Source: an uncultured Methylococcaceae bacterium
Lineage (GTDB): Bacteria; Pseudomonadota; Gammaproteobacteria; Methylococcales; Methylomonadaceae
Reading direction: 5' to 3'
NCBI GenBank assembly: GCA_903866825.1
Contig: CAIPPE010000189.1
Location: forward strand, 1-38,580
DNA length: 38,580 nt
Position 1 is the stretch's first letter; each line of letters begins with the position of its first letter. Below the pieces are notes generated by a model. The model searched no databases. It was given only the letters and a program-made list of their open reading frames with translations, and was not told the origin of the DNA. The translations under genes and the position numbers were made by a program. Below are positions 7,187-38,580 of this stretch, one piece after another.

Positions 7187-7226
7187 AGATCAGCCCTAAT
7201 GAATCAATTTACGAAGCAAAAAAAAA

Positions 7227-7255: not shown

Positions 7256-7260
7256 TAATT

Positions 7261-7337: not shown

Positions 7338-7343
7338 AAAGTC

Positions 7344-7419: not shown

Positions 7420-7511
7420 GACTAAAAAGTTATTATATATTACTTAATATAAAAAGTAAATAAAAATATTTTGTTTTAAGATTGAGCCGATAAGGAGCTC
7501 ATCAAAGACAA

Positions 7512-7784
7512 CTAGTTTACAGCATCTTTTAAAGATTTACCAGCTTTAAAAGATGGTATCTTCGCTGCCTTAATAGTTATTTCTTCGCCAGATTGAGGAT
7601 TTCGTCCTTTACGTTCTGCTCTTTCCTTAACAGAATAGGTGCCAAAGCCAACCAAAGCAACAGATTCACCTTTACTCAATGCACTTGTTACCGCTCCAAG
7701 AAATCCATCTAAAGCACGCCCAGCATCTACCTTAGTTAAGCCAGCTGACTCTGCGATAGCGTCGATAAGTTCCGATTTATTCAT
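7512..7784 (-). CDS. hupB: DNA-binding protein HU-beta
   Basis: HU is a small dimeric nucleoid protein that bends DNA and binds distorted DNA. The 90-residue length is exact for the family. The N-terminal [16 protein letters not shown], the beta-arm signature [19 protein letters not shown] and the [16 protein letters not shown] tail are diagnostic. The ATG at 7784 is preceded by a strong AGGGGG ribosome site. It follows lon, the standard gammaproteobacterial order. Confidence 0.97.
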
Positions 7785-7906
7785 TATTCCCCCTAAGGAA
7801 GTTATTTATTATATATATTTGTAAAACTCCTATGCTCATTCTAATTTGCTCTACACAGCAACAAAAAAAACACGACTATTTATAACAATAGGAGTTACAC
7901 AGTGTC

Positions 7907-7949
7907 AAGCTTTAAAACCCGCAGAAGCCATGTTTTTTGCGGTGCCGCT
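7907..7949 (-). terminator. Possible weak terminator after lon
   Basis: On the minus strand CCGCA and TGCGG form a five-base stem around a 14-nt loop, followed by GTTTTAAAG. The short stem makes this a weak call. It would partly separate lon from hupB. Confidence 0.35.
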
Positions 7950-7969
7950 TCATTTGGATTCCCTCAGTT

Positions 7970-10402
7970 TTAATGAGCCATAATACCTGATTGCTTAGTC
8001 TTATTAGTCTCGCCCTCAACTTTTAACTGCTCCCCTTCTACTTGTTTATTAAGCGGAACAGGCATGTATTGTAAAGCAACTGCCAACACTTCATCTATCC
8101 AATGCACTGGTTTAATATCCAGGTTCTGCTTTATATTTTCAGGTATCTCTACCAGGTCCTTTTCATTCTCCGCTGGAATTAAAACCGTTGTTATTCCGCC
8201 ACGATGCGCAGCCAAAAGCTTTTCTTTTAACCCGCCAATTGGCAACACCTCTCCGCGCAAAGTAATTTCACCCGTCATAGCAACGTTTGCACGCACAGGA
8301 ATCCTGGTTAAAGCAGAAATTATTGCAGTACACATCCCTATACCTGCACTTGGCCCATCTTTAGGTGTCGCACCTTCAGGAACATGAATATGAATATCAT
8401 TTTTTTGAAATAACTCATGATCTATTCCGAGTAAGTCCGAACGACTTCTAACCACAGTCATCGCAGCCTCAATAGATTCTTTCATGACCTCCCCCAACTT
8501 ACCCGTTGCTGAATGCTTACCCTTTCCGGGGATAACCGCAGTCTCAATAGTCAATAATTCGCCTCCCACCTCGGTCCAGGCCAAACCCGTCACCTGACCA
8601 ATTTGATCCTGCTCTTCAGCAAGTCCATAGTTAAATCGCTTAACGCCCAAGTAATCATTCAGATTCTCTGGTGTTATAGATATCTTTGTATCCGACGACT
8701 TTAACAAAAGACTCTTAACTACTTTACGGCAAATTTTTGAGATATCCCGCTCAAGATTTCGAACACCCGCCTCACGAGAATAATAACGGATCATATCTCT
8801 TACAGCAGTTTCTGAAATTTCAATCTCATGCTCTTCAAGACCATTATTCTTTATCTGCTTTGGAATCAAGTAACGAATCGCAATATTAATTTTTTCATCT
8901 TCGGTATAGCCGGCAAGGCGAATCACTTCCATCCTGTCTAGTAAGGCAGAAGGAATATTCATGGTATTAGCAGTGGCAACAAACATCACATCTGACAAAT
9001 CAAAATCAACCTCAAGATAATGATCTGAAAAGGTATGATTCTGCTCTGGGTCCAACACTTCTAAGAGAGCAGATGCCGGATCACCACGAAAATCCTGAGC
9101 CATTTTATCGATTTCGTCCAGTAAAAACATAGGGTTTCTGGTTTTTACCTTAGCCAGATTTTGCAAAATCTTACCCGGCATAGAACCGATATAGGTTCGC
9201 CTATGCCCTCGAATTTCTGCTTCATCTCTAACGCCCCCCAAAGCCATTCGCACATAAGTGCGATTGGTTGCCCTGGCGATAGACTCCCCTAATGAGGTTT
9301 TACCCACACCTGGAGGCCCGACCAAACATAATATTGGACCTTTTAATTGTTTGACCCGTTGCTGCACAGCAAGATACTCAAGGATACGTTCCTTTACCTT
9401 TTCTAATCCGTAATGCTCCGCCTCTAGCACTTGCTCTGCAATTTTAAGATCATGCCTTACCTTGGTTTTTTTCTTCCAAGGCACGTTGATCATCCAATCA
9501 ATATAGTTACGGACAACCGTAGCCTCAGCAGACATAGCGGGCATTAACTTAAGCTTATTCAGCTCTGTTTCTGCTTTTTTACGAGCCTCTTTTGACATGC
9601 CCGCATTTTCAATCTTCTTTTCCAACTCTTCAATTTCATTGGGCGCTTCATCCATATCACCTAATTCTTTTTGAATCGCTTTAATCTGTTCATTTAGATA
9701 ATATTCCCTTTGATTTTTCTCCATCTGCTGCTTAACACGCACCCGAATTTTTTTCTCCATTTCAAGTAAATCAACCTCGCCTTCCATTAAGGTCATTAAA
9801 TCTTCCAGACGCTTTTCAATATCTGCATGCTCAAGGATCGTTTGCTTATCACTGACTTTCAAAGTCATATGAGCAGCCATCGTATCAGCTAGACGACTAG
9901 GATCATCAATACCAGACAACGCATTTAAGACTTCAGGAGGAATTTTACTGTTTAATTTAACATATTGATCAAATGAACTGATTACCGTACGCTTTAAAAC
10001 ATCCAGGCCTTTTGCAGTCAACCTGATAACATCTTCAACCTTTTCAACCGCTGCCGAAAAAAAACTGCCGGTATCTTGATAATACAATACTTTACTACGT
10101 TCACTACCTTCAACTAAAACCTTTACCGTCCCATCCGGCAACTTTAATAACTGTAGAATATTAGCTAAGGTACCGACTTCATAAAGATCAGTAAAATCAG
10201 GCTCATCAACCTCTGCTTCCTTTTGCGCAACCAATAAAATCTGCTTATTGTCCTTCATTGCCGCATCCAGAGCATCAATAGAGCGCTCTCTTCCGACAAA
10301 TAAAGGAATAACCATGTGAGGATAAACCACCACATCTCTGAGTGGTAATACGGGAATCAAGTTATCTTTTTGCTGCAACTCTTTCATATTATGCGTTTCC
10401 AT
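7970..10402 (-). CDS. lon: ATP-dependent protease Lon
   Basis: Lon is a cytosolic AAA+ serine protease that degrades damaged and regulatory proteins. The domains are in order: N-terminal substrate domain ([13 protein letters not shown]...), a long coiled coil at about 190-300, Walker [10 protein letters not shown], Walker [10 protein letters not shown], and a protease domain with the catalytic serine in KDGPSAG and the lysine in GLKEKLLA. I choose the ATG at 10402 (810 residues), which has AAGG eight bases upstream. A longer form from TTG at 10420 (816 residues) has no ribosome site. It lies between clpX and hupB as expected. Confidence 0.95.
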
Positions 10403-26083: not shown

Positions 26084-28039
26084 TTACCCTTTGAACTCCC
26101 CCACCAACCGCTTAAAGCGTTTTAAATCCTCAGCCGTGGCGTCTTTACCATAATGCAGTTTAATAAATAACCGGGTTATCTGCTCTACCGTATCCGTCTG
26201 AGCCGGTAGGGTTATCATAACCCGCTCTCCAAACTCTTTAACCCCTTCATTACTGGCTTTTAATAAATGATACTTGCGCAGCTTTTTACAAAAGCGTTGA
26301 TAACTCCTCAGCACTGGCGAAACCTTATCGGGGGGTTGACGCAAAACCCAAGCCCCCATCAGCAGTGCCACAATAATAATACCGACCGATAAGCCATTCA
26401 TCATGCCTTTAAGATTAGCCATGCCAAAGTTGGATAAAAACTTTGCCTGATGCTGATTATCATAATTAATAATCCAGCGCTGCCAGGTGTAATCCACACT
26501 TTTCCATAGCTGCTCGCTTTGCTGGACTAGATTGACCTTATTTTGCACCGCCTCATTTGCAGGAAGATAACTAATCGCACCATTGGGTAAAGCCTGCTCA
26601 ACATTAATCGGCTGTTCAACCCGCTCAGGCGCAATCGCAGCCGTTGGATCAACCCGAACCCAGCCGCGTTGATCCAGCCATACCTCTGCCCAGGCATGGG
26701 CATCGGCCTGCCTGACTTCTAAAAAGCCCCCGACCTTATTCAGTTCACCGCCCTGATAACCTGTTACCACTCGCGCCGGGATATGTGCCACCCGCATTAA
26801 ATACACAAAAGCCGCCGCATAATGGCTACAAAACCCATAATGGGTTTCAAACAAAAACCGCTCAATCGGCCTGTCTTCCATTAACGGAGGTGTCAAGGTG
26901 TAACTAAAATGTTCGGTTCTAAAATGATTAAGCAACTGCTGGATAAAATGCTCAGGATGGTCATCACCGGCCTGTAATTGCGTCACCAATTGATTGATCT
27001 TATCAGACGGTGGACCGGGCAATTGCGTACTGTCTTTAAACTCGGTTTTAGTTAAAAAGCCGGTATTGTATTCAGGGTTAGAGGTAAGCTTATATTCCGC
27101 ACGTTTACCCGGATTTTCAGTGGTGATTAACTGATAGTAAGGACTCAAACGCAAAGGCACCGGAAACTCACTCGGCAAATCCAGCGCAAACACCCACGGC
27201 TTCTGTTGAGGTTCCATGAGCAACGTGTACTGATACCCATCTCCGTTAAAGGTTGGGTCATCCAGATAGCGACCAAAGCGCAGATCGTGAGAAGCCGTCC
27301 AGGTTTTACCATCGGTAAACGTAAACACCGGGCCGCGCCAATAACGCTGTTCGGGTGGCGGTAAGGGGCCGATAAACTTAACCCTGAACACCAGTTCCGC
27401 CGACATGCCCAGCTCACTGATAGAACCCGGCTCCATGCTATCGGTCAGGCCGGATTTTACCTGCTCTTTATCCTCAAAGAGTTTCCACTTCGGCGCTTCA
27501 AAGCGCGGGAAAAACACAAACAGAATCACTGTCATGGGCAAGGCTTGCAGCAAAAGCGTACTCGCCGTTTTTAAGGCTTTCTTTAAGGTGGCCTGCTGAC
27601 TGTTCAGGGCAATCAGCGTGGCTAATAACACGCTACTGACAAACAGGGTATAACCCGCCATGATTGGGCCTTGCTGAAACAGAAACTGCGTCGCCGCTAC
27701 GATAAACGCCAGATAAATGATCAGATAAATATCACGGGCAGATTTAAGCTCTAACAGCTTAAGCCCTAAAGCGACAATAAATAACTTGGTCCCGGCCTCA
27801 CGTCCCACCACCCCCTGATATTGGGTAGCTAGCAAGCCAATACCGGTTAGCATCAGCACAAACACCAGGATCTGTTTGGGTAGATAAGCCGGTTTCCAGA
27901 TGCCGATAAAACGCCAGCTTAACAAGACATAAAAAAAGCCCATGATCACGGCGGGCAAATGAGCGCAATGCGGCAAGGCTATCAAACCGATAGCGACCAG
28001 TAAAAACACTAAACTGATTTTGTGCTGAGAAAGAATCAT
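26084..28039 (-). CDS. Transglutaminase-like membrane protein, TgpA type (DUF3488)
   Basis: This 651-residue protein has several N-terminal helices (DUF3488, about residues 1-185) and then a periplasmic transglutaminase-like domain. The catalytic triad is visible: Cys in YGFCSHYAAAFV, His in QADAHAWAEVWL and Asp in VRVDPTAA. A further helix near residue 560 and a cytosolic tail (DUF4129-like) follow. Relatives such as Pseudomonas TgpA are essential for growth, but the substrate is unknown. It is the last gene of the moxR operon, starting five bases after the DUF58 stop. Confidence 0.92.
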   Translation of the reverse strand: MILSQHKISLVFLLVAIGLIALPHCAHLPAVIMGFFYVLLSWRFIGIWKPAYLPKQILVFVLMLTGIGLLATQYQGVVGREAGTKLFIVALGLKLLELKSARDIYLIIYLAFIVAATQFLFQQGPIMAGYTLFVSSVLLATLIALNSQQATLKKALKTASTLLLQALPMTVILFVFFPRFEAPKWKLFEDKEQVKSGLTDSMEPGSISELGMSAELVFRVKFIGPLPPPEQRYWRGPVFTFTDGKTWTASHDLRFGRYLDDPTFNGDGYQYTLLMEPQQKPWVFALDLPSEFPVPLRLSPYYQLITTENPGKRAEYKLTSNPEYNTGFLTKTEFKDSTQLPGPPSDKINQLVTQLQAGDDHPEHFIQQLLNHFRTEHFSYTLTPPLMEDRPIERFLFETHYGFCSHYAAAFVYLMRVAHIPARVVTGYQGGELNKVGGFLEVRQADAHAWAEVWLDQRGWVRVDPTAAIAPERVEQPINVEQALPNGAISYLPANEAVQNKVNLVQQSEQLWKSVDYTWQRWIINYDNQHQAKFLSNFGMANLKGMMNGLSVGIIIVALLMGAWVLRQPPDKVSPVLRSYQRFCKKLRKYHLLKASNEGVKEFGERVMITLPAQTDTVEQITRLFIKLHYGKDATAEDLKRFKRLVGEFKG

Positions 28040-28044
28040 CGTGA

Positions 28045-28941
28045 TTAAAAGAGTGCTAAGGCTTCAAGACAGCGTCGGGAGTGATGGAAACCCTGTGCCG
28101 GGCCAAGTTGTAAGCCGGGCAATGCAAAGCCATACACTAAATGGGCTTGTTCGGCTTCCAGCAGCCAGCGGCATAACTGGCTTAAGCGTTCTTCGGTACT
28201 GTGCCCTGACGTTTGGGCATAGTCTAGCCACAGTTCGGTGGCTTCTGCGTTGCCGTAGTGCTTGCTGAATAAGCCCTGACTTTTTGCAAAGGCCTTCCAG
28301 TGAATCTGCTTTAAGGAATCGCCCGGCTGATAGGTGCTTAAACCATAAAAATCATCAGCGCCTTTTTCTAAGCGGGTTAAATTAGACGCCGCACTGGCCG
28401 TACTCGGTAACGGCAGGCTGATAGCGCTCGGCTTGGGGTACACCAAAGTCGTCAGGTCCAGCGTCAAATCCGACCAGACTTTAAAAAACCCCAAGGGATA
28501 AGTACTGGATACGGTGACTTTATCGGCTGTTAACCAGCCTCTTTTCTGAGTCGGTACTGTTAAGGTAATACTGGCTTTACCTTGCGGCGTTAAAGCGATG
28601 GTTTCGGTATCCGCAAGCGTAACAGCGACACTCGGTCTTTCTAGCGGGGACGGATTGCCGAGATGAATCACAAAGCCGGCGTTTTCTCCGGCATATACGG
28701 GTGTATTCTGACCGGCTTGTACGGTCAGTCCAGCCAGTGCTTTATACGTGTGTAACAGGGTGACAGAAAACACACTCAAGAGCAGAAATGCCAGTAAATA
28801 CACCAGATTATTGTTGTAGATAAAGGCAATCAGCAACAACAAAACCGTCATCATCACAAAGTTAAAGCCGCGTTGAGTCGGGGCAATAAACAGGCGTTTT
28901 TGCGTTAAGGTGACGGGGGAATGCGTCGAGGCTGCGCTCAT
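28045..28941 (-). CDS. DUF58 domain protein
   Basis: This 298-residue protein has two N-terminal membrane helices (about residues 30-68) and the DUF58 signature YGLSTYQPGDSLKQIHWKAFAK near residue 200, preceding a degenerate von Willebrand A-like fold. DUF58 proteins almost always accompany a MoxR ATPase and a transglutaminase, as here, and are thought to join MoxR in assembling or maturing a partner complex. The start overlaps the moxR stop (ATGA). Confidence 0.92.
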   Translation of the reverse strand: MSAASTHSPVTLTQKRLFIAPTQRGFNFVMMTVLLLLIAFIYNNNLVYLLAFLLLSVFSVTLLHTYKALAGLTVQAGQNTPVYAGENAGFVIHLGNPSPLERPSVAVTLADTETIALTPQGKASITLTVPTQKRGWLTADKVTVSSTYPLGFFKVWSDLTLDLTTLVYPKPSAISLPLPSTASAASNLTRLEKGADDFYGLSTYQPGDSLKQIHWKAFAKSQGLFSKHYGNAEATELWLDYAQTSGHSTEERLSQLCRWLLEAEQAHLVYGFALPGLQLGPAQGFHHSRRCLEALALF

Positions 28942-29882
28942 GGAATAGCCACTTGCGCAAGAATAGGCGCCACAATCGCAAACGAATCGTGATTACCCGC
29001 TCTTAAGCGATGCCCGGCAACAGCCGCCAGAACGGCTTTAATATCTTCGGGAATCACCGTATCGCGTTGCTCCAGAAACGCCCAGGCTTTGGCGGCATTC
29101 AACAGCGCCAGGCCCGCTCTGGGTGACAAACCATAAGGGTAATCCGGTGAAGTTCGGGTAAAGTCTAAAATAGCCTGACAATAATCCAGTACCGGCTCGG
29201 AGACAAATACCTGCGCAACTTGTGTTTGCATCTGAAGTAATAATTCTGGGGGTAATTGCACAGGCAGGTTGGCAATCAGGCTGTGCCGACTTTGGCCCTT
29301 GAGTAATAAACGTTCGGCTTCATGATGCGGGTAGCCGAGTTCGATACGCATTAAAAACCGGTCTAGCTGGGATTCGGGTAGCGGAAAAGTGCCGATTTGA
29401 TGAGACGGGTTTTGGGTGGCAATCACAAAAAAAGGTTCAGGCAGAGCGTAGGTTTTGCCTTCTAAAGTGATGGTGTGTTCTTCCATGGCTTCTAACAAAG
29501 CACTTTGCGCTTTGGGAGTGGCGCGGTTGATTTCATCCGCCAGAACCAGTTGATTAAACAGGGGGCCGGGATGAAAGGTAAAGGACAGGTTTTTAGGATC
29601 AAAGATAGACGCGCCCAGTATGTCAGAGGGCAAAATGTCACTGGTAAACTGGATGCGTTGATATTGCAGGCCGAGCAGTTTAGCAAGCGTATGAGACAGG
29701 GTGGTTTTACCTACGCCGGGTACATCTTCAATCAATAAATGCCCACGGGCTAACAGACAACATAAGGCTAGCTTGATTTTATGGGATTTACCAAGAATCA
29801 CTTCATTGGCTGCGTTTAACAGGGGGGTGGTTTCGTTATACATAGGGTTATTGTTCGGGGTTGGGGATAGAGTGGGCATCAT
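28938..29882 (-). CDS. MoxR-family AAA+ ATPase
   Basis: This 314-residue AAA+ chaperone-like ATPase has Walker A EDVPGVGKTTLSHTLA, Walker B VLADEINRATPKAQSALLEAM, sensor 1 FVIATQNP and the MoxR-typical ESQLDRFLMRIELGYP. MoxR proteins help mature or activate enzyme complexes and membrane proteins. It leads the MoxR-DUF58-transglutaminase operon. The ATG at 29882 is followed by a second ATG, and either may be used. It starts 50 bases after the last prepilin gene and may be read through from it. Confidence 0.93.
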   Translation of the reverse strand: MMPTLSPTPNNNPMYNETTPLLNAANEVILGKSHKIKLALCCLLARGHLLIEDVPGVGKTTLSHTLAKLLGLQYQRIQFTSDILPSDILGASIFDPKNLSFTFHPGPLFNQLVLADEINRATPKAQSALLEAMEEHTITLEGKTYALPEPFFVIATQNPSHQIGTFPLPESQLDRFLMRIELGYPHHEAERLLLKGQSRHSLIANLPVQLPPELLLQMQTQVAQVFVSEPVLDYCQAILDFTRTSPDYPYGLSPRAGLALLNAAKAWAFLEQRDTVIPEDIKAVLAAVAGHRLRAGNHDSFAIVAPILAQVAIP

Positions 29883-29932: not shown

Positions 29933-32302
29933 TTACCAGTTAAAGACTAACGGGACGCCGGGTATAAAGATTTGTGGAATAGGGGCGGCATGGCCAGCGG
30001 GGTAAGTTGGGTTATTCCATGCACTGGATCTACACCCATCACCGTTAGAATCTGATGTAATGCTAATTGCGTTTTGACCGGCTGGAATTGGTGGTGGTGA
30101 AGATATTAGTGATGGGGTGATTGTGGATTCAGTCAAATTGTAAGTATAGGGCGTGCCTGTAAATAGCACTGTTTGTTGTAAATTATTATGTGCAGTCGTG
30201 CCAGGCCAACTGGCAACAGCAATGTCCACACCTGTTGTAGATGCATAACGATAGAAAACGTTAAGACAAATATTATCGGCGGCCTTGCAGGCAGAGCTGG
30301 TGGCTGGAAGGTAGGTGCCACATAAAGTATTTAAATAACTGGTATAGGGCGCAGAAAAAGTACATTGATAGGGGGATGAGTTTGTATTCCAGGGATATCC
30401 GCTACCTGACTCAGCACCGCTAAATGCATTGCAAATATTTCCGACATCTATAGTACTAGTACTGGCTGTTGAGAGTGTGCACGCATCGGTTGTACCGTTA
30501 CCTAAAGTAGTCGGTGTGCCGTTTAACGCAGAACAGGTATCATCTAGGGAGGTGGAACCGGCAGTTAGAGTACAGGTGCCTGCGCCACTACTTGTATTGC
30601 CACCCACTTTGTTACAGGTAATAAAATCCATACTTGGCATAAAGCAAGTGTTTGAAGTTGCATTCCATGTGCCGCCTCCGTAGCTACAAAAAGATTGTAG
30701 CGGCGGGGATGCGGTTCCAATTCCTGCAGTAGGCGATGCCCCAGTAACACTACAATAGGCATTACCAGTAGACCAAGTTTTGCCACTACATAAATATTGT
30801 GAGGGGGATGATATTGGAAAGGTAAAAGCACAACTGGTAACACCTGCTAAACTTGTTGAGCATGATGGGGTGGTTGTTGTTACATTAGAGAGTCCTGCAA
30901 CTGCTGCTAATTGGGTAACGGGGCTGGTGCTAAAAGGCCCCATAGTACAATTACCAACGGCGGGAATATTTAAGGTTCCTGGGCAGTTCGCTCTAGTGTA
31001 TGCGGTAGCGAGGGCAGGTAACTGACATCCTTGTCCAGTTTGATAATTAAGGCTCCAGAGTGCACAAAGATCTTGGTCGAATGTTGGAGGTAAATGACAA
31101 GAGTGTGGAGTAGCGGTGTAATCCCATTGCATTCCGCCAGCAGTACATAATGCTTGAGACAGTGGTGAAGAGGAAATCAATGGTAAAGTACAAGTATAAG
31201 GCGCCCCAACTGTAAGTTGACTCCAAGTGCCATTTAACTGAGTACACAAATTACTTGTTGGTGCTAAATGACAATTAGGTCCAGTCCAACCTCCTGAAGT
31301 ATCGCTAGCTAATGCACTTGTATCACCCGTGGTAGCAGATTTTTGATTATTCAAGATGGCGCACATATCAGTAGAAACAACACATTTTCCTGAGGAAGGA
31401 TCAAATGTCGAACCGGTAATATCGCAAATACCTTGATAGTTTGATGATGTTGATGCAGGTTCTAAAATATAACCGACATCTGCTGCTTTTAAGTTAACAG
31501 TAATGCTAGGATTGATAATATAGGGTGTATTTTGTGCGTTAATGACTGGTTGGGCGCTTTGGCTAGGATAGTCATTTTGAAAGGAATCTGTATTAGTTGA
31601 GGTGCCTACTGCACCGTCAGAGCCAAAGCTTTGTAATATGAGTTGACCAGAAGTAAGGTCTGGCTGATAAACCCAGCCGTAGTTATTTGCATTGCCTTTA
31701 GTAATAGAGTAATTGGTTCCATTATTTGTAAAGTTAATGGGAGCGGTGGATGCGGGGGGGTTAATGGTTGAATCACCCCAGCCATCTGAAAAGGCATAAT
31801 TTGTAGTTGGGTCATTCGATGTTTGTATATAAGGGCCGTTCCAGCCAGTGTTAAGACTAATTGTGGATGTTGTTAGTATAGGCTGCGGTGATAGTGGTTG
31901 TGGAGACCATTTGCCTGCTGGTGTTGGTGATGTGCAATTACTATAGGTGATTTGCGAAGATGTACCACTGGTTATGCAATTACCAATGACACTGCCAGCT
32001 ATATCAGTTAGCCATTTTGTGTTAGCTGGGCAAGTACCATCCAGTAATTCTTCTAGACAGTAAGGCAATCTCCCCATATCGGCTACAAACCCAGTTACCA
32101 CTGGGACACCATTAATCGTTTGAACATTAACAATCGCCTGTTTGATTTGATTAACCCGTTCAACAGTTTGATTATAACGAGACTGATCTTGCAGGCCTGA
32201 CATAGATTTAAGCATAACAGTGCCGACCACTGCCATAATCGTTAGGCCCATCATTAATTCTATTAGCGTAAAGCCTTTATTTCTCATACGACTTAAATTC
32301 AT
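29933..32302 (-). CDS. Giant prepilin-like protein with cysteine-pair repeats
   Basis: The N-terminus (NKGFTLIELMMGLTIMAVVGTVML) is a class III/IV prepilin signal: cleavage after Gly, Glu at +5, then a hydrophobic helix. The 789 residues are several times a normal pilin. After an N-terminal pilin-like part (to about 260), about ten loose repeats follow, each with a cysteine pair and often a Gly-Gly or Trp between (CTAGGMQWDYTATPHSCHLP; CSYGGGTWNATSNTCFMP; CTQLNGTWSQL...YTC). The tail is also rich in Ser, Thr and Asn. This suggests a surface-exposed, disulfide-bonded minor pilin or adhesin. It is translated five bases after the preceding prepilin. Confidence 0.8.
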   Translation of the reverse strand: MNLSRMRNKGFTLIELMMGLTIMAVVGTVMLKSMSGLQDQSRYNQTVERVNQIKQAIVNVQTINGVPVVTGFVADMGRLPYCLEELLDGTCPANTKWLTDIAGSVIGNCITSGTSSQITYSNCTSPTPAGKWSPQPLSPQPILTTSTISLNTGWNGPYIQTSNDPTTNYAFSDGWGDSTINPPASTAPINFTNNGTNYSITKGNANNYGWVYQPDLTSGQLILQSFGSDGAVGTSTNTDSFQNDYPSQSAQPVINAQNTPYIINPSITVNLKAADVGYILEPASTSSNYQGICDITGSTFDPSSGKCVVSTDMCAILNNQKSATTGDTSALASDTSGGWTGPNCHLAPTSNLCTQLNGTWSQLTVGAPYTCTLPLISSSPLSQALCTAGGMQWDYTATPHSCHLPPTFDQDLCALWSLNYQTGQGCQLPALATAYTRANCPGTLNIPAVGNCTMGPFSTSPVTQLAAVAGLSNVTTTTPSCSTSLAGVTSCAFTFPISSPSQYLCSGKTWSTGNAYCSVTGASPTAGIGTASPPLQSFCSYGGGTWNATSNTCFMPSMDFITCNKVGGNTSSGAGTCTLTAGSTSLDDTCSALNGTPTTLGNGTTDACTLSTASTSTIDVGNICNAFSGAESGSGYPWNTNSSPYQCTFSAPYTSYLNTLCGTYLPATSSACKAADNICLNVFYRYASTTGVDIAVASWPGTTAHNNLQQTVLFTGTPYTYNLTESTITPSLISSPPPIPAGQNAISITSDSNGDGCRSSAWNNPTYPAGHAAPIPQIFIPGVPLVFNW

Positions 32303-32307
32303 ACTAT

Positions 32308-33237
32308 TTATTTTGAACAGGGTTGGTTGCTGCCTGGGTCTACAGCATCTAAGTAAAGTACGCGGTCGTCACTATTTCTGGATGTCAACGTGCTTACAGG
32401 CACAAGCCCAATATTAGAACCAGATATGTCTGGTGTTAACTCAATCCCATTGATAGCTCCACCCGACACCAAGAAGAATTTATTGTTATAGTCTTCCATC
32501 AAAACAATTGGGGAACCTTGTAGAAGAAACGTCGTGCTACCATCAGTATTGGTTGCTACAACTGGATAGCTATCCAATGAAACGGTATTCGAATTGGACG
32601 TTATGAGTGTAGGTGGGGTCGGATTTGAAAAGCCGCAAACTCCTTTAGTATCAATAGGCGGCAAAGTGCTACCCGTTGGTAAATTATTCAATTTACCGAC
32701 AATTGCAGCGCAGGTTATTCCACCTGTAAGATACGGACCACGCCAACCACGTTGCGTTACAGCATTAAACGTTTGTGTGGTTGCGCTGGTTAGTATTGAT
32801 GTGGATGTATTAAACGATGGGTTGTTAGTCGTTGAATTAATAATGCCATTACCATACAGCGGATTATTAAACAGATTATTAAGGCTTGATGGACTGGGCG
32901 TAGCAACAACATCCACCGGCATCACTCCCATATCACTCCGATACCCCCCCTGCCCTCCACCGCCCATAATCGCATCCCTAATATTCGCCAGCGTCGCATC
33001 AGTTGCCACACATTCTGTATATCTCGCGGTTCCTGTAAACATCGGGATAGTCACACCTGCCAAAGCCACTAATATAAATAACACCACGGTCAGTTCAATC
33101 AGCGTAACGCCGCTCATAGACTTAAACTGAACAGACTTAAAGCCTGTTTTCTTATGGCGCCTAATATAAGAGTGAAATAACCCCCGATCGGGCATTATAA
33201 ACAGTGCTGTTTTCATCAATAAAATCACAGTATTCAT
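32308..33237 (-). CDS. Prepilin-like protein, first gene of a two-gene unit
   Basis: The signature SGVTLIELTVVLFILVALAG gives a prepilin cleavage after Gly with Glu at +5. The body (about 260 residues) is rich in Asn, Thr and Ser and has sparse cysteines (YTECVATD, GVCGF, NQPCSK). From the ATG at 33237 the leader would be 42 residues, unusually long; later ATGs at 33216, 33195 and 33117 give shorter leaders, none with a clear ribosome site, so the start is uncertain. It is followed by the giant prepilin and transcribed from a sigma-54 promoter. Confidence 0.8.
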   Translation of the reverse strand: MNTVILLMKTALFIMPDRGLFHSYIRRHKKTGFKSVQFKSMSGVTLIELTVVLFILVALAGVTIPMFTGTARYTECVATDATLANIRDAIMGGGGQGGYRSDMGVMPVDVVATPSPSSLNNLFNNPLYGNGIINSTTNNPSFNTSTSILTSATTQTFNAVTQRGWRGPYLTGGITCAAIVGKLNNLPTGSTLPPIDTKGVCGFSNPTPPTLITSNSNTVSLDSYPVVATNTDGSTTFLLQGSPIVLMEDYNNKFFLVSGGAINGIELTPDISGSNIGLVPVSTLTSRNSDDRVLYLDAVDPGSNQPCSK

Positions 33238-33305
33238 TTAAAAAGATTAAGTAAGGTAACTCGCAATAAATAAACTGGTTAAGTAAAGCGCACGATGAAA
33301 AAAAC

Positions 33306-33363
33306 AGGAGTGCAATAGCTTCAGCTATTGCCATTTAAAAAACAGCTAAAGCTGTTTTACTCC
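33306..33363. repeat. Double-hairpin REP-like element
   Basis: Two small hairpins lie in tandem: GCAATAGCT/AGCTATTGC and AACAGCT/AGCTGTT. They are enclosed by GGAGT and ACTCC, so the whole unit is imperfectly palindromic. The second half recurs at 38189-38212 (ACAGCTAAAGCTG...TTTACT). It lies within the predicted 5' leader of the prepilin at 33237. Confidence 0.6.
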
Positions 33364-33410
33364 AATAGACAAAGTGGGGGGGTATTATTGCGTCTTAACT
33401 AACTCAATTA

Positions 33411-33427
33411 GCAAAAAACAAGCCAAG
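33411..33427 (-). promoter_or_regulatory. Sigma-54 promoter of the two-prepilin unit
   Basis: The minus strand reads TTGGCTTGTTTTTTGCT, matching TTGGCACGNNNNTTGCT with exact GG-N10-GC spacing. Transcription would start near 33399, about 160 bases before the ATG at 33237. The AGGTCA-type sites at 33448-33515 lie upstream. Confidence 0.75.
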
Positions 33428-33447
33428 CTAATAGTTATGGACTATTC

Positions 33448-33515
33448 GCCCTTTGACCTCTGTTATCGTCCAGGAAAAAATAGGTCAAATGACACACTCT
33501 TGCGTGATATGACCT
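33448..33515. promoter_or_regulatory. Activator-binding sites (UAS) between divergent sigma-54 promoters
   Basis: Three sites with an AGGTCA core are seen: minus 33448-33459 (AGGTCAAAGGGC), plus 33482-33493 (AGGTCAAATGAC) and minus 33504-33515 (AGGTCATATCAC). Successive cores start 28 bp apart. The middle one is identical over 12 bp to the site at 38143. They lie between the prepilin promoter (33411) and the activator-gene promoter (33604) and could serve both. Confidence 0.65.
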
Positions 33516-33603
33516 GTTTTTCTTAAAAACAACGGGGACTGCTTAAGCCTTAACTTTTCGTTTTGCCCCCGATAATCCAGCGCTCATCAAGCTTATAAGC
33601 TGC

Positions 33604-33620
33604 TTGGCATGATAATCGCT
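33604..33620 (+). promoter_or_regulatory. Sigma-54 promoter of the activator gene
   Basis: TTGGCATGATAATCGCT matches the -24/-12 consensus with exact GG-N10-GC spacing. Transcription would start near 33631, about 80 bases before the activator ATG. This implies that the activator drives its own gene. The rest of 33524-33603 shows nothing I can name. Confidence 0.7.
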
Positions 33621-33709
33621 TAATATTATTAAGAACTTTAAATCCCAATGCCGCCAGTAAATACGGCAAGACGAGCCCGTCAGGGAATCACCTTCATTGA
33701 ACAATTTTA

Positions 33710-34678
33710 ATGGTCAAAGCAAGAAAAATCCTGGGCAAAGCCCCAGCGCTTAAAGCGTTACTGCGTGAAGTAAAAAAAATTGCCCATACCGAGGCTAATG
33801 TGCTTATTTCGGGAGAAACCGGCACCGGTAAAGAATTGATTGCCATTGCTCTGCAACAAAAAAGTCGTCGTGCCAAAGCCGTCTTTGTTACCTTAAATTG
33901 CGCAGCATTGTCACCGGAACTCTTGGAACCTACCCTATTCGGTTATATGAAGGGGGCGTTTACCAATGCCGATGAAGATACCCCAGGGATAATTGCAGCC
34001 GCTGATGGGGGGACATTATTTCTGGATGAAATCAATTCGCTGTCCTTGGCGCTGCAAGCAAAATTACTGCGCTTTGTTCAGAATCGTGAATATTTACCGG
34101 TAGGTGCCGCTAATACCTGTACCGCTGATGTTCGCATTATCGCGGCAACCAATGCGGTTATGCCTGAGATCATTGAGCAGGGGCGGTTTAGGGCTGATTT
34201 ATATTATCGCTTAAGTGTATTTGTGGTCGATATGCCGCCTTTACGGGAGCGTACTGAAGATATTAGCTTGTTGTTGGGTTATTATCTACGCCAATTTGCG
34301 GCTAAATATAGCCTGCGAACGACGATTATAAAGCCGGAGGCCATAGAAGTGCTTGAAAAATATGCCTGGCCCGGCAATATTCGGGAGCTGCGGAATTTGT
34401 GTGAATTCCTGACGATTTCCAAGTTTAGACGCTTGATAGGTGTCCATGATCTGCCGGCGCATTACCGTAAGACCGGTGCTCGCTGCAAGATTCTTTATTT
34501 TGAACTGCCTGAAGAGGGTCTGGACTGGTATCGCTTAGAGCAGTCCTTGCTGCAACAAGCCCTGACAGCAGCCGATGGCAATGTAAGTCAGGCGGCAGAT
34601 TTATTGGGCTTGACCCGACATGCACTGTATTACCGGATTAAAAAATGGGGGCTTAATGTTGATGCGGACCTCTTCTGA
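33710..34678 (+). CDS. Sigma-54-dependent activator without a sensor domain
   Basis: This 322-residue bacterial enhancer-binding protein consists only of the AAA+ domain and a Fis-type DNA-binding domain, like PspF. Walker A is GETGTGKE (35-42), Walker B is GTLFLDEIN (101-109), the arginine-finger region is FRADLYYRL, and the HTH is near 290-316 (NVSQAADLLGLTRHALYYRI). The sigma-54-contacting GAFTGA loop reads GAFTNA (82-87), a departure at a key glycine. An in-frame TGA nine bases before the ATG rules out a longer N-terminus. No strong ribosome site is seen. Lying among sigma-54-promoted prepilin genes, it is very probably their activator. Confidence 0.92.
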   Translation: MVKARKILGKAPALKALLREVKKIAHTEANVLISGETGTGKELIAIALQQKSRRAKAVFVTLNCAALSPELLEPTLFGYMKGAFTNADEDTPGIIAAADGGTLFLDEINSLSLALQAKLLRFVQNREYLPVGAANTCTADVRIIAATNAVMPEIIEQGRFRADLYYRLSVFVVDMPPLRERTEDISLLLGYYLRQFAAKYSLRTTIIKPEAIEVLEKYAWPGNIRELRNLCEFLTISKFRRLIGVHDLPAHYRKTGARCKILYFELPEEGLDWYRLEQSLLQQALTAADGNVSQAADLLGLTRHALYYRIKKWGLNVDADLF

Positions 34679-34688
34679 GGTTCGAGTA

Positions 34689-34806
34689 GGGCAAATGGCT
34701 TATTTTTTGCTGGAAATCTACCCCTTAAACTTTATTGTTAAACAGCCATTTATCAAGCCCGTTGTTTAAAAATACGGCATATGAAACAAAAGTCGGGAAA
34801 TGACCT
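34689..34806. promoter_or_regulatory. Upstream activator sites for the prepilin at 35089
   Basis: The stronger site is on the minus strand at 34795-34806 (AGGTCATTTCCC), about 70 bp upstream of the -24 element at 34876. A weaker related site lies at 34689-34700 (AGCCATTTGCCC on the minus strand). Both are followed on the plus strand by a T run, as are the sites near 33515 and 38154. Confidence 0.55.
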
Positions 34807-34873
34807 AGTTTTTAAATGGGCTAAAGCAGGGGTTAAATTTAACAAATCCCGATATAACAGGCTTTTTTAAAAG

Positions 34874-34890
34874 TTGGCACAGGCTTTGCT
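34874..34890 (+). promoter_or_regulatory. Sigma-54 promoter of the prepilin at 35089
   Basis: TTGGCACAGGCTTTGCT is close to a perfect match to TTGGCACGNNNNTTGCT, with exact GG-N10-GC spacing. Transcription would start near 34901, giving a leader of about 188 bases. Confidence 0.85.
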
Positions 34891-34900
34891 AACTATGTTT

Positions 34901-35088
34901 TCGCTAGCAACGTTGTTTGCTTCAAGGAAGAAACGCTAAGGAAGCCATTGTGCAGGAGCACACGAACGAGAGGAGATGGGTTTTCCCCCGCCGCCCTTTT
35001 GTTATCTGAAGGTCTCGTACACCGACAGATAATGACTGCGTTAGTATTAACCTTAACTTTACATAAAGCGATATGGAGAAAACCCATC
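34901..35088 (+). ncRNA. Structured mRNA leader, candidate cis-regulatory RNA
   Basis: Several pairings can be drawn. Hairpin 1 is TGTGC/GCACA with an AGGA loop (34949-34962). Hairpin 2 is TTATCTG/CAGATAA (35002-35008 with 35026-35032) with an inner GGT/ACC. ACGAGA (34966-34971) can pair with TCTCGT in the hairpin 2 loop (35013-35018), a pseudoknot. GATGGGTTTTC (34975-34985) is perfectly complementary to GAAAACCCATC (35078-35088), and the helix extends through one mismatch to cover the ribosome site GGAG at 35075. It matches no riboswitch class I know. Confidence 0.55.
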
Positions 35089-35976
35089 GTGAAAAATTAT
35101 AACTTAAAAGCAATAAAGCAACAGGCTGGTATGACCTTAATCGAATTAACAGTGGTCTTGTTAGTTCTAGTAGGTTTGGCAGGTTTAACAATTCCTTATA
35201 TCTCAGGATTTGTTGGCAAAACACACAATGCTACTTCTGCGGACAGTGGTGCTAGTTTATTTAACTCATTACAGTTGTATGCGGTTACCAATAACGGCTT
35301 ACCTAATGGTTTGAACGTTTTGACTAGTAGCGCAACTTCTGCGGGCATTATTCCAAACTATCTAGATAATAACTTCGTAAATACACAGACTTCAGCTACG
35401 ACACTTGCTACCATTACACCAGTTAACTTTGGTACAGTAACCGGAAGCGCAGCTATTCTTGGTTCGCTTAATGCTGCTAATTTCACTACAGCTACAGCAT
35501 TATCTGCAACGAATTTCTCATATGCTAATTCAGATGGTACGTATGGTTTTTCATCAGGTGGAAGCGCTACATTCGATCCAGAAATTACAGCGGCGGCAAT
35601 TACTGCAACTACAAATTTTGTTAGTGATACTGCTGGCGGTAAAGATTACACAACTGCTAATTATGCGGGCGGTCAAAACACAAGTATTTCTGGCGTGTTA
35701 GGTTATAAGGTTCCAACCAATCATGTATTGATTGTATTAGGTGTAGGCCAATCAAATGCTGCAATTGGCAAAACATTGTCTTCTGTGCCTGTGCATTTTG
35801 GTGACAAAGGTTCATTACAACCTACTTATACTTATAGCCGCTTCTTGGCTGCTGTTGATGTCGATACTTCTGGACAAAATGCACCAGCAAAAATCGTAGG
35901 TATCGTACATGCTCCAGATATTGGCGATAAATGGGAATCATTGTTTAGCAGCATCTCTGGATACTACAAAAGCTAA
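35089..35976 (+). CDS. Prepilin-like protein (paralogue of 36931-37947)
   Basis: The prepilin leader KQQAG is followed by MTLIELTVVLLVLVGLAGLT, with cleavage after Gly14 and Glu at +5. The mature part, about 280 residues, is rich in Ala, Thr, Asn and Ser and has no cysteine. It shares VLGVGQSNAAIGKTLSS and the YSRFLAAVDVD stretch near the C-terminus with the prepilin at 36931. I choose GTG 35089, which has GGAG 10 bases upstream (295 residues). The open frame extends upstream to 34948, but that part is leader RNA. It is transcribed from its own sigma-54 promoter. Confidence 0.88.
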   Translation: MKNYNLKAIKQQAGMTLIELTVVLLVLVGLAGLTIPYISGFVGKTHNATSADSGASLFNSLQLYAVTNNGLPNGLNVLTSSATSAGIIPNYLDNNFVNTQTSATTLATITPVNFGTVTGSAAILGSLNAANFTTATALSATNFSYANSDGTYGFSSGGSATFDPEITAAAITATTNFVSDTAGGKDYTTANYAGGQNTSISGVLGYKVPTNHVLIVLGVGQSNAAIGKTLSSVPVHFGDKGSLQPTYTYSRFLAAVDVDTSGQNAPAKIVGIVHAPDIGDKWESLFSSISGYYKS

Positions 35977-36027
35977 TATAGTCTAGTCTGACTTACTCGG
36001 CCTAAGTGTCTCTTAGGCTATCCCACC

Positions 36028-36058
36028 GGGGCAACAAGGAGGTTGCCCCATTCTTGTT
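36028..36058 (+). terminator. Terminator of the prepilin at 35089
   Basis: The stem GGGGCAAC/GTTGCCCC has a 6-nt loop followed by ATTCTTGTTT. A second small hairpin (GCCTAAG/CTTAGGC) lies just before it. Confidence 0.8.
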
Positions 36059-36238
36059 TAAGCCTCTCTGCCAATATCTTTCTTACTCGCAGCTTTCTCT
36101 ACTGTCATCGAATTCACATTCGATCATCAATCTCATGCTGCCATAGATGTCATCCTGATATGTACTTTATCAGATTAATAAATCCTATTTATTGGTGTTA
36201 TAAACAAGATCGAATTTACCTGTAAATAAAAGGCACTA

Positions 36239-36481
36239 ATGGTGTTTGATGATAAGTTTTTTGATGACTGGTTAGAAACTCAAGCACCCAAAGTGATGGC
36301 GCAGATTAGCGAGCTACCTAAGCATTTGATCTGATCAAATGCTGATTTACGTAGTGAGATGCGGGCGCTCCGCGAAGACATGGACAAGCGCTTTGAGCAA
36401 GTGGATAATCTTATGATTTGGTCATTCGCGTCTACACTGACAGTGGGCGGCATAGTCATCGTAGCCATTAAGTTTCTGTAA
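36239..36481 (+). pseudogene. Small coiled-coil membrane protein gene split by TGA
   Basis: One frame runs 81 codons from ATG 36239 to TAA 36481, with a single TGA at codon 32 (36332). Before it: MVFDDKFFDDWLETQAPK...; after it: SNADLRSEMRALREDMDKRF, then EQVDNLMIW and a C-terminal helix TVGGIVIVAIKFL. The layout (coiled coil then membrane anchor) resembles small DUF1640-like proteins. The TGA sits in a perfect 23-bp palindrome (36322-36344). Either the gene is broken or the downstream half starts anew; I see no ribosome site for the second option. Confidence 0.5.
36322..36344. repeat. Perfect 23-bp palindrome in the split gene
   Basis: AGCATTTGATC and GATCAAATGCT are exact inverted copies around one T. 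The stop codon that interrupts the reading frame lies at the centre, which suggests that the palindrome and the stop arose together. Confidence 0.8.
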
Positions 36482-36875
36482 ATAACCATCGAGTAAACTT
36501 AATAGCCCCACCGAACCCTCAGGGATGGCATCCCAATACCATTACCATTACACTAATGGTAAGTTGTTTTTACTCCACTATGACCCGAAAGACTCAGTGG
36601 ATTTAACTTCCCCGATTCCACTATGCCTCATTAAGGGCTACTTGCTTTCTACCGTTTATGTGATTTAAAAAATAATCATTTTGGAGATTAAAGGTGGGCA
36701 GTCAGTAGTCAAGATAATGTAAAACAACATCGAGGAATGTCGGTGCAGATCCTAGATAATCCGTATCCATTGATTCATAAATCGTCTTTACCAAATCGAG
36801 CGCAAACTTTATAAATCTTCTCGATCTGATGAACTGCGAACAGCCGCCTAGGTAGGCGTCTTTGCTTGAAAAAAA
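36482..36875. other. Intergenic region with small hairpins, no gene seen
   Basis: No credible gene is visible. There are inverted repeats: GGGATG/CATCCC (36522-36534); TTACCATTA/TAATGGTAA (36542-36562), the latter followed by GTTGTTTTT and usable as a plus-strand terminator; and CGCCTA/TAGGCG (36845-36858). The remainder has no recognisable RNA or promoter. Confidence 0.5.
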
Positions 36876-36908
36876 GGCGCGGTCCGGTGATTTTATCCGG
36901 GCCGCGCC
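36876..36908 (-). terminator. Strong terminator after the prepilin at 36931
   Basis: The stem GGCGCGG.CCGG / CCGG.CCGCGCC has one central mismatch and a 9-nt loop. It is flanked by T on both strands (7 T on the minus strand, 5 on the plus strand), so it is two-way. Confidence 0.9.
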
Positions 36909-36930
36909 TTTTTAATGGGAAAGCATTACA

Positions 36931-37947
36931 TTACAACATATTCTGCGTTGCGACCGAGCCTTTATAGTAATTAGTGATAGTGGTGCTGATGCCTTCAAGC
37001 TGCATTGAGCCATCGCCATAGATAATACCTATCATTTTTGCCGCCGATGTACCATTGGCGGCATCCACGTCAATAGCGGCAAAGTAACGGCTATAGACTA
37101 ATTGCGGCAGAGATGTCCCACCTGCACCTCCATTGATCGCAAAAACTACCGGAGACGATGCAATCGTTTTGCCTATCGCCGAATTGCTCTGTCCAACGCC
37201 CAATACAATGATTTGATGACCGGTTGGCACAGTGTATCCCAGTATGTTCGCTATTGTGTAACCCTGTGAATTATTCAGGTTCGCCATCATGCCACCACCT
37301 GTCTGAGTGTAGGTTCCAGAAGTCATTCCGCAGTTAACGATAACGTTGGGGCCGGCACAATAGTCGGTGAACATACCATCCCAGCTAGTGACCCAATTTG
37401 TAACTGATGAAACTGCAACCTGATTAGTAGAATTGGACCAGGCAGGGTTAAACGTTACATCGACCGTAGGACCACCCACACCCTGAGTGGCGGTATACGT
37501 TCCATCACCATTCGCTGTATACACAACTCCTGTATTGGGCGATTGCACCACGGAGGTTATCCCTGCCTTTATCAATGAGTTGCTGATGTTTGTGTTTGTG
37601 GTAAGGTTGGTAGATGCAGTCGTCCAATTCATCGGCTGCGAACCGGGGTACATCATCACATAACTGTCTATAGTTGTGTCTACAGCTGAACTCGGAGAGC
37701 CTGATGCAAGCGCCAGCAGATCAAGGTTGTTGGGTAAAGCATTGGTCTGATTTTGGTATAGCTGCAGAGAGTTGTTTAGGTCGGAAACGGTAAACGCACC
37801 GGTAGCTGAAGAAGTGTTGGCCATGAAGCCTGAGATATAAGGCACGGTTAAACCAGCAAGGCCGACCAACACCAGAAGCACAACGGTCAACTCGATTAAA
37901 GTCAAACCAGCCTGATGACTGATCTGTTTTATGGTAGAAATTTTCAT
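36931..37947 (-). CDS. Prepilin-like protein (paralogue of 35089-35976)
   Basis: The leader SHQAG precedes LTLIELTVVLLVLVGLAGLT, with cleavage after Gly14 and Glu at +5. The mature part of about 324 residues is rich in Asn, Thr, Ser and Gly. It has two cysteines (YCAGPNVIVNCGM), unlike its paralogue. The C-terminal block IVLGVGQSNSAIGKTIASSP plus YSRYFAAIDVD is shared with the prepilin at 35089. The ATG at 37947 follows GGGATAAAAAC. It is a single-gene unit with a sigma-54 promoter and a strong terminator. Confidence 0.88.
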   Translation of the reverse strand: MKISTIKQISHQAGLTLIELTVVLLVLVGLAGLTVPYISGFMANTSSATGAFTVSDLNNSLQLYQNQTNALPNNLDLLALASGSPSSAVDTTIDSYVMMYPGSQPMNWTTASTNLTTNTNISNSLIKAGITSVVQSPNTGVVYTANGDGTYTATQGVGGPTVDVTFNPAWSNSTNQVAVSSVTNWVTSWDGMFTDYCAGPNVIVNCGMTSGTYTQTGGGMMANLNNSQGYTIANILGYTVPTGHQIIVLGVGQSNSAIGKTIASSPVVFAINGGAGGTSLPQLVYSRYFAAIDVDAANGTSAAKMIGIIYGDGSMQLEGISTTITNYYKGSVATQNML

Positions 37948-38029
37948 TTTGTTTTTATCCCAAAAAAGGTTTTTTTATAAGTTAACGCCTGCGGATAATC
38001 GTGAGATACCGATAGGAAAAAATATAAAT

Positions 38030-38046
38030 GCAGAATTTATGCCATT
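38030..38046 (-). promoter_or_regulatory. Sigma-54 promoter of the prepilin at 36931
   Basis: The minus strand reads AATGGCATAAATTCTGC, followed by AT, with exact GG-N10-GC spacing against the -24/-12 consensus. Transcription would start near 38018, about 70 bases before the ATG at 37947. Confidence 0.75.
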
Positions 38047-38120
38047 AATGGCGGCAAAGGCATAGTACGCGAGCTTACCAGTCCTGAAACTAAACCAGGC
38101 TGAATGCCCGGCTAAAAAAT

Positions 38121-38154
38121 GAGTCATTTCACTCAAATAGGCAGGTCAAATGAC
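38121..38154. promoter_or_regulatory. Upstream activator sites for the prepilin at 36931
   Basis: Two sites are seen: GAGTCATTTCAC at 38121-38132 and AGGTCAAATGAC at 38143-38154. They lie about 80 and 105 bp upstream of the -24 element. The second is identical over 12 bp to the site at 33482. Confidence 0.6.
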
Positions 38155-38188
38155 TTATTTTTAATGTCACAGAATTTTTACAACTGTA

Positions 38189-38212
38189 CAACAGCTAAAG
38201 CTGCTTTACTTC
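38189..38212. repeat. REP-like half element
   Basis: CAACAGCTAAAGCTGCTTTACT repeats the second hairpin of the element at 33341-33362 with few changes. It lies upstream of the activator sites of the prepilin at 36931; the bases from here to 38320 show nothing else beyond a short palindrome AGGGTC/GACCCT. Confidence 0.5.
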
Positions 38213-38320
38213 ACCCTCTAAGCGGATTGGAAGGTCACGACAGGAATTAATTTGGCAACATGGGGGCCATTAGTTAGACCCATCACCCCCCCAGGGTCTG
38301 ACCCTATCGGTTCTATCGGT

Positions 38321-38580
38321 TCATAATTCGTCTTTAAATATGTCTGATAATTGTTGGGCATCAATAGCCAAATCAAACCAACGCTCAATCGTCTCTACTG
38401 GGGCATTACAAATTAAACGTGTGATTTCGGAAGGTATGGCACCAAAGTGTTTAGACAATAATCTTTGCAAAGCCAGCATTTCACCTTCCTGTTTACCTTC
38501 TAGCTTACCTTCTAGCTTACCTTCTAGTTTACCTTCTAATTTACCTTCTAGCTTACCTTCGAGCTTACCTTCTAGCTTGC
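38321..38580 (-). CDS. Rpn/PD-(D/E)XK-type protein, C-terminal part
   Basis: The frame is open to the window edge, so the 5' part, with any nuclease domain, is not seen. The visible end has about eight KLEG or KQEG repeats, then EMLALQRLLSKHFGAIPSEI, TRLICNAPVETIERWFDLAI and a stop after DIFKDEL. This tail, a charged GK(L/Q)EG repeat followed by LLxxRFGxxP...I, is typical of Rpn/DUF4351-type proteins (recombination-promoting nuclease, transposase-related). The 12-bp repeat could change in length by slippage. Confidence 0.75.
   Translation of the reverse strand, partial: KLEGKLEGKLEGKLEGKLEGKLEGKLEGKQEGEMLALQRLLSKHFGAIPSEITRLICNAPVETIERWFDLAIDAQQLSDIFKDEL
38483..38580 (-). repeat. 12-bp tandem repeat encoding KLEG
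   Basis: About eight tandem copies of the unit TACCTTCTAGCT (plus strand) continue past the window edge. Each encodes Lys-Leu-Glu-Gly with minor base changes, so the reading frame is kept whatever the copy number. Confidence 0.85.

Follow-up and report, generated by a model that had tools for sequence, protein, structure and literature searches.

Sigma-54 promoters and paired operator dyads at the prepilin genes of an uncultured Methylococcaceae bacterium point to a wider regulon

In Pseudomonas and other bacteria, the pilin gene pilA is controlled by PilR and RpoN (sigma-54). More generally, passages of PMC3162934 present sigma-54 as a controller of the cell exterior. Here we analyse the 38,580-nucleotide (nt) contig CAIPPE010000189.1 (C189), taken in its entirety and hereafter referred to as the window, from the 4.28-Mb, 345-contig genome of an uncultured Methylococcaceae bacterium (G, C, L and f numbers are our handles for genomes, contigs, loci and families). 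In the window, prepilin genes surround a gene for a sigma-54-type enhancer-binding protein (EBP), and a sequence-only reading had proposed that this EBP binds a motif with an AGGTCA core and drives the prepilins and itself as a self-contained regulon. We find the promoters in place, an operator of a different form, and that operator before other genes as well. It is probable, in our judgement, that the four promoters of the window are part of a larger sigma-54 regulon, in which an EBP linked to a DsbD_2-type protein would be the main activator and the window EBP an autoregulated second layer.

Sigma-54 promoters and paired dyads in the window

The sequence-only reading had placed a GG-N10-GC promoter before each of the three prepilin units and before the activator gene, and its positions are right to within one base, each on the sense strand:

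33410..33425, minus strand: -24/-12 promoter of the prepilin pair 32308-33237 and 29933-32302; TGGCTTGTTTTTTGCT; score 13.2
33605..33620, plus strand: -24/-12 promoter of the EBP gene; TGGCATGATAATCGCT; score 13.7
34875..34890, plus strand: -24/-12 promoter of prepilin 2; TGGCACAGGCTTTGCT; score 16.6, the best in the window
38029..38044, minus strand: -24/-12 promoter of prepilin 3; TGGCATAAATTCTGCA; score 12.3

All four have the TGGCAY..TTGCW context around GG-N10-GC in sense orientation before the gene (scores 12.3-16.6). With our scoring matrix, which is approximate, they are the only sites in the window that reach 12, and 17 sites reach 9. A total of four such sites is ordinary (40 shuffles give a mean of 2.8 and a maximum of 7); taken gap by gap, a sense-strand site arose in 23, 22, 20 and 27 of 2000 shuffles for the four gaps. 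In the promoter of the EBP gene, a single base differs upstream of the orthologues in two other genomes, G033 and G012. The genome has one PF04552 (sigma-54, rpoN) match, on contig C67. The four sites are real, and the proposed sigma-54 control of the prepilins and the activator gene gains support from the promoters kept in relatives and from the single rpoN match, so that the window promoters are likely to be sigma-54 dependent.

The operator had been read as AGGTCA, with six sites about 55-125 bp upstream of the promoters. We rejected this hexamer as the operator unit, as it is not enriched (17 copies in the window versus 14.1 in shuffles). The distance holds for four of the six intergenic copies near promoters (33454, 33482, 33510, 34801, 38143 and 38232); one of the others lies about 29 bp and one about 190 bp from the nearest promoter. 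The 12-mer AGGTCAAATGAC is, as had been noted, identical at 33482 and 38143, and a genome-wide scan gave 3 occurrences, the third within an open reading frame (ORF). The dyad GTSAWWTSAC has 5 full matches in the window versus 0.76 in shuffles, and four of the five make two pairs in promoter gaps (33484/33504 and 38123/38145). None of 3000 shuffles of 33238-38340 gave even one pair, although these were single-base shuffles and hence a weaker control. The dyads, none with an assigned strand, are:

33484..33493: operator dyad D1; GTCAAATGAC; 10/10 match; aligns with TAGGTGATATGAC in G033 and G012
33504..33513: operator dyad D2; GTGATATGAC; 10/10 match; 20 bp from D1; aligns with GTGATATAAC in G033 and G012
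38123..38132: operator dyad D3; GTCATTTCAC; 10/10 match
38145..38154: operator dyad D4; GTCAAATGAC; 10/10 match; 22 bp from D3
34795..34804: degenerate dyad before prepilin 2; GGGAAATGAC; 9/10 match

When the region upstream of the EBP gene is aligned with those of the G033 and G012 orthologues, the kept blocks, besides the -24/-12 element, are TAGGTSAWATGAC and GTGATATRACCT, both of which are versions of this dyad. Scored with a dyad-pair matrix trained on 18 hand-picked sites, all outside the window, D1-D2 reaches 37.9 in the gap common to the EBP gene and prepilin A, and D3-D4 reaches 32.7 before prepilin 3. The control set, 368 upstream regions from 36 loci of relatives, is bimodal, with 19 regions at 24.4 or above and the rest at 13.6 or below. 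Pair spacing is 20-22 or 30-31 bp in all ten pairs seen in this genome, about two or three helical turns, and the dyad centres lie at about -90 to -144, with +1 assumed 12 nt past the -12 GC. A common upstream operator at EBP-like distance is thus borne out, and we take it to be the dyad GTSAWWTSAC in phased pairs, rather than AGGTCA, with an EBP as its probable ligand.

The operator beyond the window, and the pilins

The term self-contained does not survive: at least eight dyad pairs lie elsewhere in the same genome, a lower bound, since pairs were found only near listed single dyads.

C44, C127 and C295: dyad pairs before FecI/FecR systems
C217 and C238: dyad pairs before PepSY genes
C132: two dyad pairs before exopolysaccharide-type genes (an O-antigen-ligase-type protein and a WcaJ-type transferase)
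C117: dyad pair before a small-protein cluster

Profile tests covered the sigma factor of C44, PepSY on C127 and C238, and the TonB receptors on three contigs (C44, C127 and C217); the remaining FecI/FecR names and the C217 PepSY were assigned by eye. A -24/-12-like site in the right orientation follows six of the eight pairs (C44, C295, the second of C132, C117, C217 and C238); at the first C132 pair it is doubtful. As single sites, GTSATATSAC occurs 21 times in the genome versus 6 for the reversed pattern, 14 of the sites being intergenic and 7 inside clear ORFs; those on C295 and C302 are counted as intergenic though they overlap ORFs of 60 and 54 amino acids, which were taken as spurious. 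The same comparison over 121 genomes was rejected as a specific test, because genomes with no close EBP match are also raised (for instance G112, 11 versus 1). For the looser GTSAWWTSAC, the places listed are the first 50 of 72 genome matches. The C117 cluster (L132) encodes proteins of 81, 240 and 118 amino acids and has dyads; its G033 counterpart directly precedes the EBP gene. In the window genome the EBP stands apart from this cluster, and DUF4351 genes are present on both contigs; at 38460-38580, a tandem repeat encodes KLEG units of a DUF4351-like protein, truncated where the contig stops.

The pilins of relatives lead to the same result. Six of ten orthologous pilin genes (G044, G070, G083, G062, G091 and G103) have a pair at 24.4 or above, that of G050 scores 23.6, and a -24/-12 site scoring at least 14 lies upstream of eight of the ten, in G094 at -370. 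No EBP of the window-EBP family was found in 14 stretches of 3-20 kb around relatives' pilins, in which ORFs of at least 200 amino acids were compared with the window EBP at E 1e-20. A window-type EBP match at 1e-100 is present in 8 of 237 family genomes, and these include none of the pilin-bearing relatives; five pilin relatives belong outside the family, beyond that search, and their listed best EBP matches are about 1e-84 to 1e-92. These pilins carry the pair without a nearby EBP of this family, and the pilin operator therefore exists without the window EBP.

The genes behind the prepilin promoters are:

32308..33237, minus strand: prepilin A (GVTLIE; start codon uncertain); weak PF07963 match, 15 bits versus a cut-off of 21.2
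29933..32302, minus strand: large prepilin-like protein of 789 amino acids, 5 bases after prepilin A; PF07963, 29 bits
34891..35088, plus strand: long pilin leader, partly common to relatives
35089..35976, plus strand: prepilin 2; likely GTG start at 35089; longest ORF from 34948
36931..37947, minus strand: prepilin 3; homologue of prepilin 2 (42-45%) and of pilins in 10 relatives

All four prepilins have G-[FMLV]-T-L-I-E and a hydrophobic stretch; the 789-residue protein alone reaches the Pfam N_methyl cut-off, and the N-terminus of prepilin 2, VKNYNLKAIKQQAGMTLIEL, resembles those of relatives' pilins. The stretch of about 160-200 nt that leads from the -12 element to the pilin start is kept in L072, L074, L077 and L082. 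In a consensus fold of five sequences, 9 of 43 pairs show both-side changes and the covariation term is unfavourable overall; a hairpin CTGCC/GGCAG becomes TTATCTG/CAGATAA in the window. Rfam searches gave no family at gathering score for the leaders in six relatives' loci, and two matches, both far below cut-offs, in 33000-38580. C326 appears to carry the machinery that assembles these pilins into a pilus: there, a GspE/PilB-kind ATPase, 72% identical to that of the G062 pilin cluster, is adjoined by secretin-, GspF- and PilT-like ORFs (by eye). After the prepilin pair, 26084-29882 encodes a MoxR-type ATPase, a DUF58-like protein (below cut-off) and a TgpA-type transglutaminase; by eye, the gene order next to prepilins in G044 (L075) is similar.

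Candidate activators

The activator gene of the window is as follows:

33710..34678, plus strand: EBP; AAA+ Sigma54_activat domain, lid and Fis-type helix-turn-helix (HTH); no sensory domain; GAFTNA loop

The protein has 322 residues, with Sigma54_activat beginning at residue 7, and what we take to be Walker A/B, arginine finger and sensor II are all present, as is HTH_8. Its nearest named records come from metagenome-assembled genomes of Methylococcales (79%) and Methylococcaceae (76%). Two identities were rejected: PilR, as the N-terminal receiver domain is missing, and PspF (TIGR02974), for which it scores 258.3 bits versus an NCBIfam cut-off of 443.55.

Window-type EBPs are present in 8 of the 237 family genomes. 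We viewed eight other loci (G033, G012, G031, G011, G006, G148, G149 and G152), four of them under 4.5 kb, the genomes of G033 and G011 being only 74-75% complete. Prepilins adjoin the EBP in the window locus alone among the nine, the strict prepilin motif occurs in none of the other eight, and pilin searches in the first five genomes gave short generic matches or none. A dyad pair lies upstream of the EBP in G033, G012, G011 and G006; it is absent in G031, and the 3-4-kb loci of G148, G149 and G152 yielded none. The GG and GC of the -24/-12 element are intact in G033 and G012, and GT replaces GC in G011 and G006. The G011 copy adjoins a DsbD_2-type gene (by eye) and the G006 and G152 copies adjoin a conserved-type EBP, an adjacency compatible with origin by duplication. 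Beside the G011 EBP, a gene at 1965-2522 (minus strand) of L071 encodes a lipoprotein-like product with repeated Cys/His-rich segments, of metal-binding look by eye; the dyad pair upstream of it scores 25.6.

These loci bear on the proposal that the window EBP alone binds the operator and drives the three prepilin units and itself as a dedicated local circuit. The prepilins do flank the EBP, G033 and G012 keep its promoter and dyads, its ATPase motifs are intact, and the change in its loop is classed as putatively functional (below). However, non-pilin genes of the same genome carry the operator, relatives' orthologous pilins carry it with no EBP of this family nearby, and window-type EBPs occur without such pilins, so that we regard this circuit as unlikely.

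A second kind of EBP is an equal or better candidate for the binder. The window genome has two closely related copies (C192 and C132), each after a DsbD_2-type gene, that of C192 being confirmed by Pfam. The same arrangement is found in G044, G070, G049, G062, G050 and G026, flanked in five of the six by what we take to be rnc-era-recO-pdxJ-like genes and in G049 by a pdxJ-like gene only. In family f6, all four proteins tested carry DsbD_2 and the EBP in one polypeptide. These are the DsbD_2-Sigma54_activat-HTH_8 fusion proteins of L123, L124, L125 and L129, and the genes of L123, L125 and L129 are divergent from a receptor-like gene. Three of the four fusion genes have a strong upstream dyad pair (36.5, 37.5 and 30.0); for the fourth, in G103, whose called start is perhaps too early, the 400 bp before the divergent ORF contain a pair of 28.1. 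These pairs provide the best apparent link between the DsbD_2-linked EBP and the motif. In the class at large, 10 of the 274 genomes sampled, our own included, have a match that spans the two halves within a single row, and in G075 the halves occupy neighbouring rows; the pairing is therefore not confined to the order Methylococcales. No dyad pair was found in ten loci (3-5 kb each) of these class-wide matches.

The receptor divergent from two of the fusion genes has TIGR01778 (copper) as its best match, but at 140 and 153 bits versus a cut-off of 472, far too low for a copper identity, and a copper role is only hinted at. Our guess, because of the fusion and this sub-threshold match, is that DsbD_2 transmits a signal, perhaps copper. 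Passages from two papers that deal with the uptake of copper and lanthanides (PMC12914433 and PMC12482762) hold no sigma-54 link, and a search by title or abstract start, most subscription journals being outside it, returned nothing on this operator or on a DsbD_2-EBP.

In the EBP tree, the six window-type rows used group together as a single clade (100/100) with a long stem, next to the conserved and the fused EBPs, the three branching in uncertain order. No DsbD_2 gene is among the ORFs adjoining the window EBP, which falls in the separate clade. By these signs it is a relative rather than a member of the DsbD_2-linked family, a divergent paralogue. The recognition helix reads RHALYYRIKK in the window type versus RDTLLYRMQK in the conserved type, and the sigma-54 contact loop is GAFTNA in the window, G033 and G012, GAYTDA in G011, and intact GAFTGA in G031 and three g15 copies. 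In G006, the EBP paralogue at 7196-8191 (minus strand) of L126 has lost the loop by an in-frame deletion, together with an arginine-finger residue (the arginine of YRL, which reads KQL here) and the N of sensor I, and has kept its HTH and upstream dyads. A literature search for GAFTNA found it only in an unrelated influenza paper.

Another possible role is that of a brake: a window-type EBP that still binds DNA while its loop is eroding would compete with DsbD_2-linked EBPs or poison their rings, giving negative feedback. The changes in the three GAFTNA copies, G011 and G006 fit this idea, as do passages of PMC3162934 in which most single changes to the loop, especially those at F and T, lower activity or abolish it. 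Yet the other catalytic motifs checked are intact in the G000, G033 and G012 EBPs, and four copies keep GAFTGA. Passages of PMC3162934 also place N at position 5 of GAFTGA among the putatively functional changes, and those of PMC4641369 count GAFTDA, GAYTDA and GAFTHA as likely active. The published classification of loops thus favours an activator, and a brake seems improbable to us.

Proposed regulon and comparison with known systems

In the wider regulon that we prefer, sigma-54 polymerase would wait at the four -24/-12 promoters, and EBP dimers would bind two dyads at about -90 to -145, separated by two or three turns of the helix, where they could form an AAA+ ring that opens the promoter. 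The binder would be one EBP family, represented by its DsbD_2-adjacent or fused member and, in this genome, also by the window EBP. DsbD_2, a membrane protein, is probably a sensor of metal or redox state, and the EBP linked to it would be the primary activator of the pilin, FecI/FecR/TonB, PepSY and exopolysaccharide genes. The window EBP would be a sensor-less, second-tier co-activator, autoregulated through its own promoter and dyads. The promoters, the dyad pairs and how far they are kept, the larger set of targets, the EBP tree and the fusion are read directly from sequence, whereas binding, the identity of the acting EBP, the signal and the direction of feedback are inferred.

Several results weigh against this regulon. 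The 18 training sites were selected by hand, and the control set was taken from loci fetched for pilins or EBPs and includes divergent neighbours of target genes; several of its 19 high scorers are such neighbours, TonB-type receptors or a prepilin, and the set is not clean. The operator of prepilin 2 is weak, its pair score of 15.6 lying within the empty range of the controls (13.6-24.4). Genome-wide, the looser GTSAWWTSAC is barely enriched (72 versus 55 reversed), and six of nine isolated matches in L163-L171 are inside ORFs, so that most lone matches of this pattern are due to chance; family-f7 genomes that lack a close EBP match also have more GTSATATSAC than reversed control. The C127 pair has no recognisable -24/-12 element downstream, and the sites at the six other pairs score 9.7-14.5, three of them at most 11, where chance sites are common. 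Among the orthologous pilins, those of G099, G094 and G049 have no dyad pair; a transposase gene just upstream of the G049 pilin (L085) may explain its loss there. The -24/-12 sites beside the f6 fusion genes (G091 and G094) face the divergent receptor gene rather than the fusion, and in family f1 a pair of at least 24.4 is found at one of nine DsbD_2 genes (G011), so nothing ties the DsbD_2-linked EBP to the motif in that family.

Least probable of all the readings is that a classical PilS/PilR system drives the pilins while the dyads serve something else, such as a repressor: PilR with sigma-54 on pilA is the textbook case, and a first look gave 17 EBP candidates in the genome, but the dyads form phased pairs at a distance usual for EBPs, -24/-12-like sites follow six of the eight pairs outside the window (three at low scores), and several genes for EBPs of the window-EBP family have such dyads before them.

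More tentatively, with the balance against so broad a claim, this may be an undescribed one-component sigma-54 system of Methylococcales. In it, DsbD_2, an electron- or metal-handling protein, would gate an adjacent or fused EBP that, through phased dyad pairs, jointly switches metal-uptake receptors, extracytoplasmic function (ECF) sigma factors, exopolysaccharide and the pilus. Some lineages, including that of the window, might have added a sensor-less, autoregulated paralogue with a drifting loop as a tunable feedback layer. For the control of pili in methanotroph-type bacteria, our analysis offers a concrete operator, candidate regulators and a list of targets; it would place pili, exopolysaccharide and likely metal uptake under a common switch, and the fusion of DsbD_2 with an EBP suggests one way in which signals could reach sigma-54 activators.

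The locus resembles the PilR/RpoN-pilA system in having a sigma-54 promoter and upstream sites before a pilin gene. In contrast to that system, its EBP has no receiver domain, its operator is common to metal-uptake and exopolysaccharide genes, and its pilins are about 300 residues long with only a weak N-terminal family match. In size (about 320 residues) and composition (AAA+ plus Fis-type HTH, sensor-less), the window EBP is like PspF and HrpR-HrpS, type Ic in passages of PMC3162934, whereas its kin are encoded beside or fused with DsbD_2. Azotobacter VnfA1 and VnfA3, as described in passages of PMC9542535, are likewise paralogous, metal-linked EBPs with common targets, a sharing that is presumed here, but activators and targets differ. 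Finally, the targets found here (surface, transport and exopolysaccharide genes) agree with the view of sigma-54 as governing the cell exterior, to which this locus would add a concrete operator and an EBP family in Methylococcales, absent from those passages of PMC3162934.

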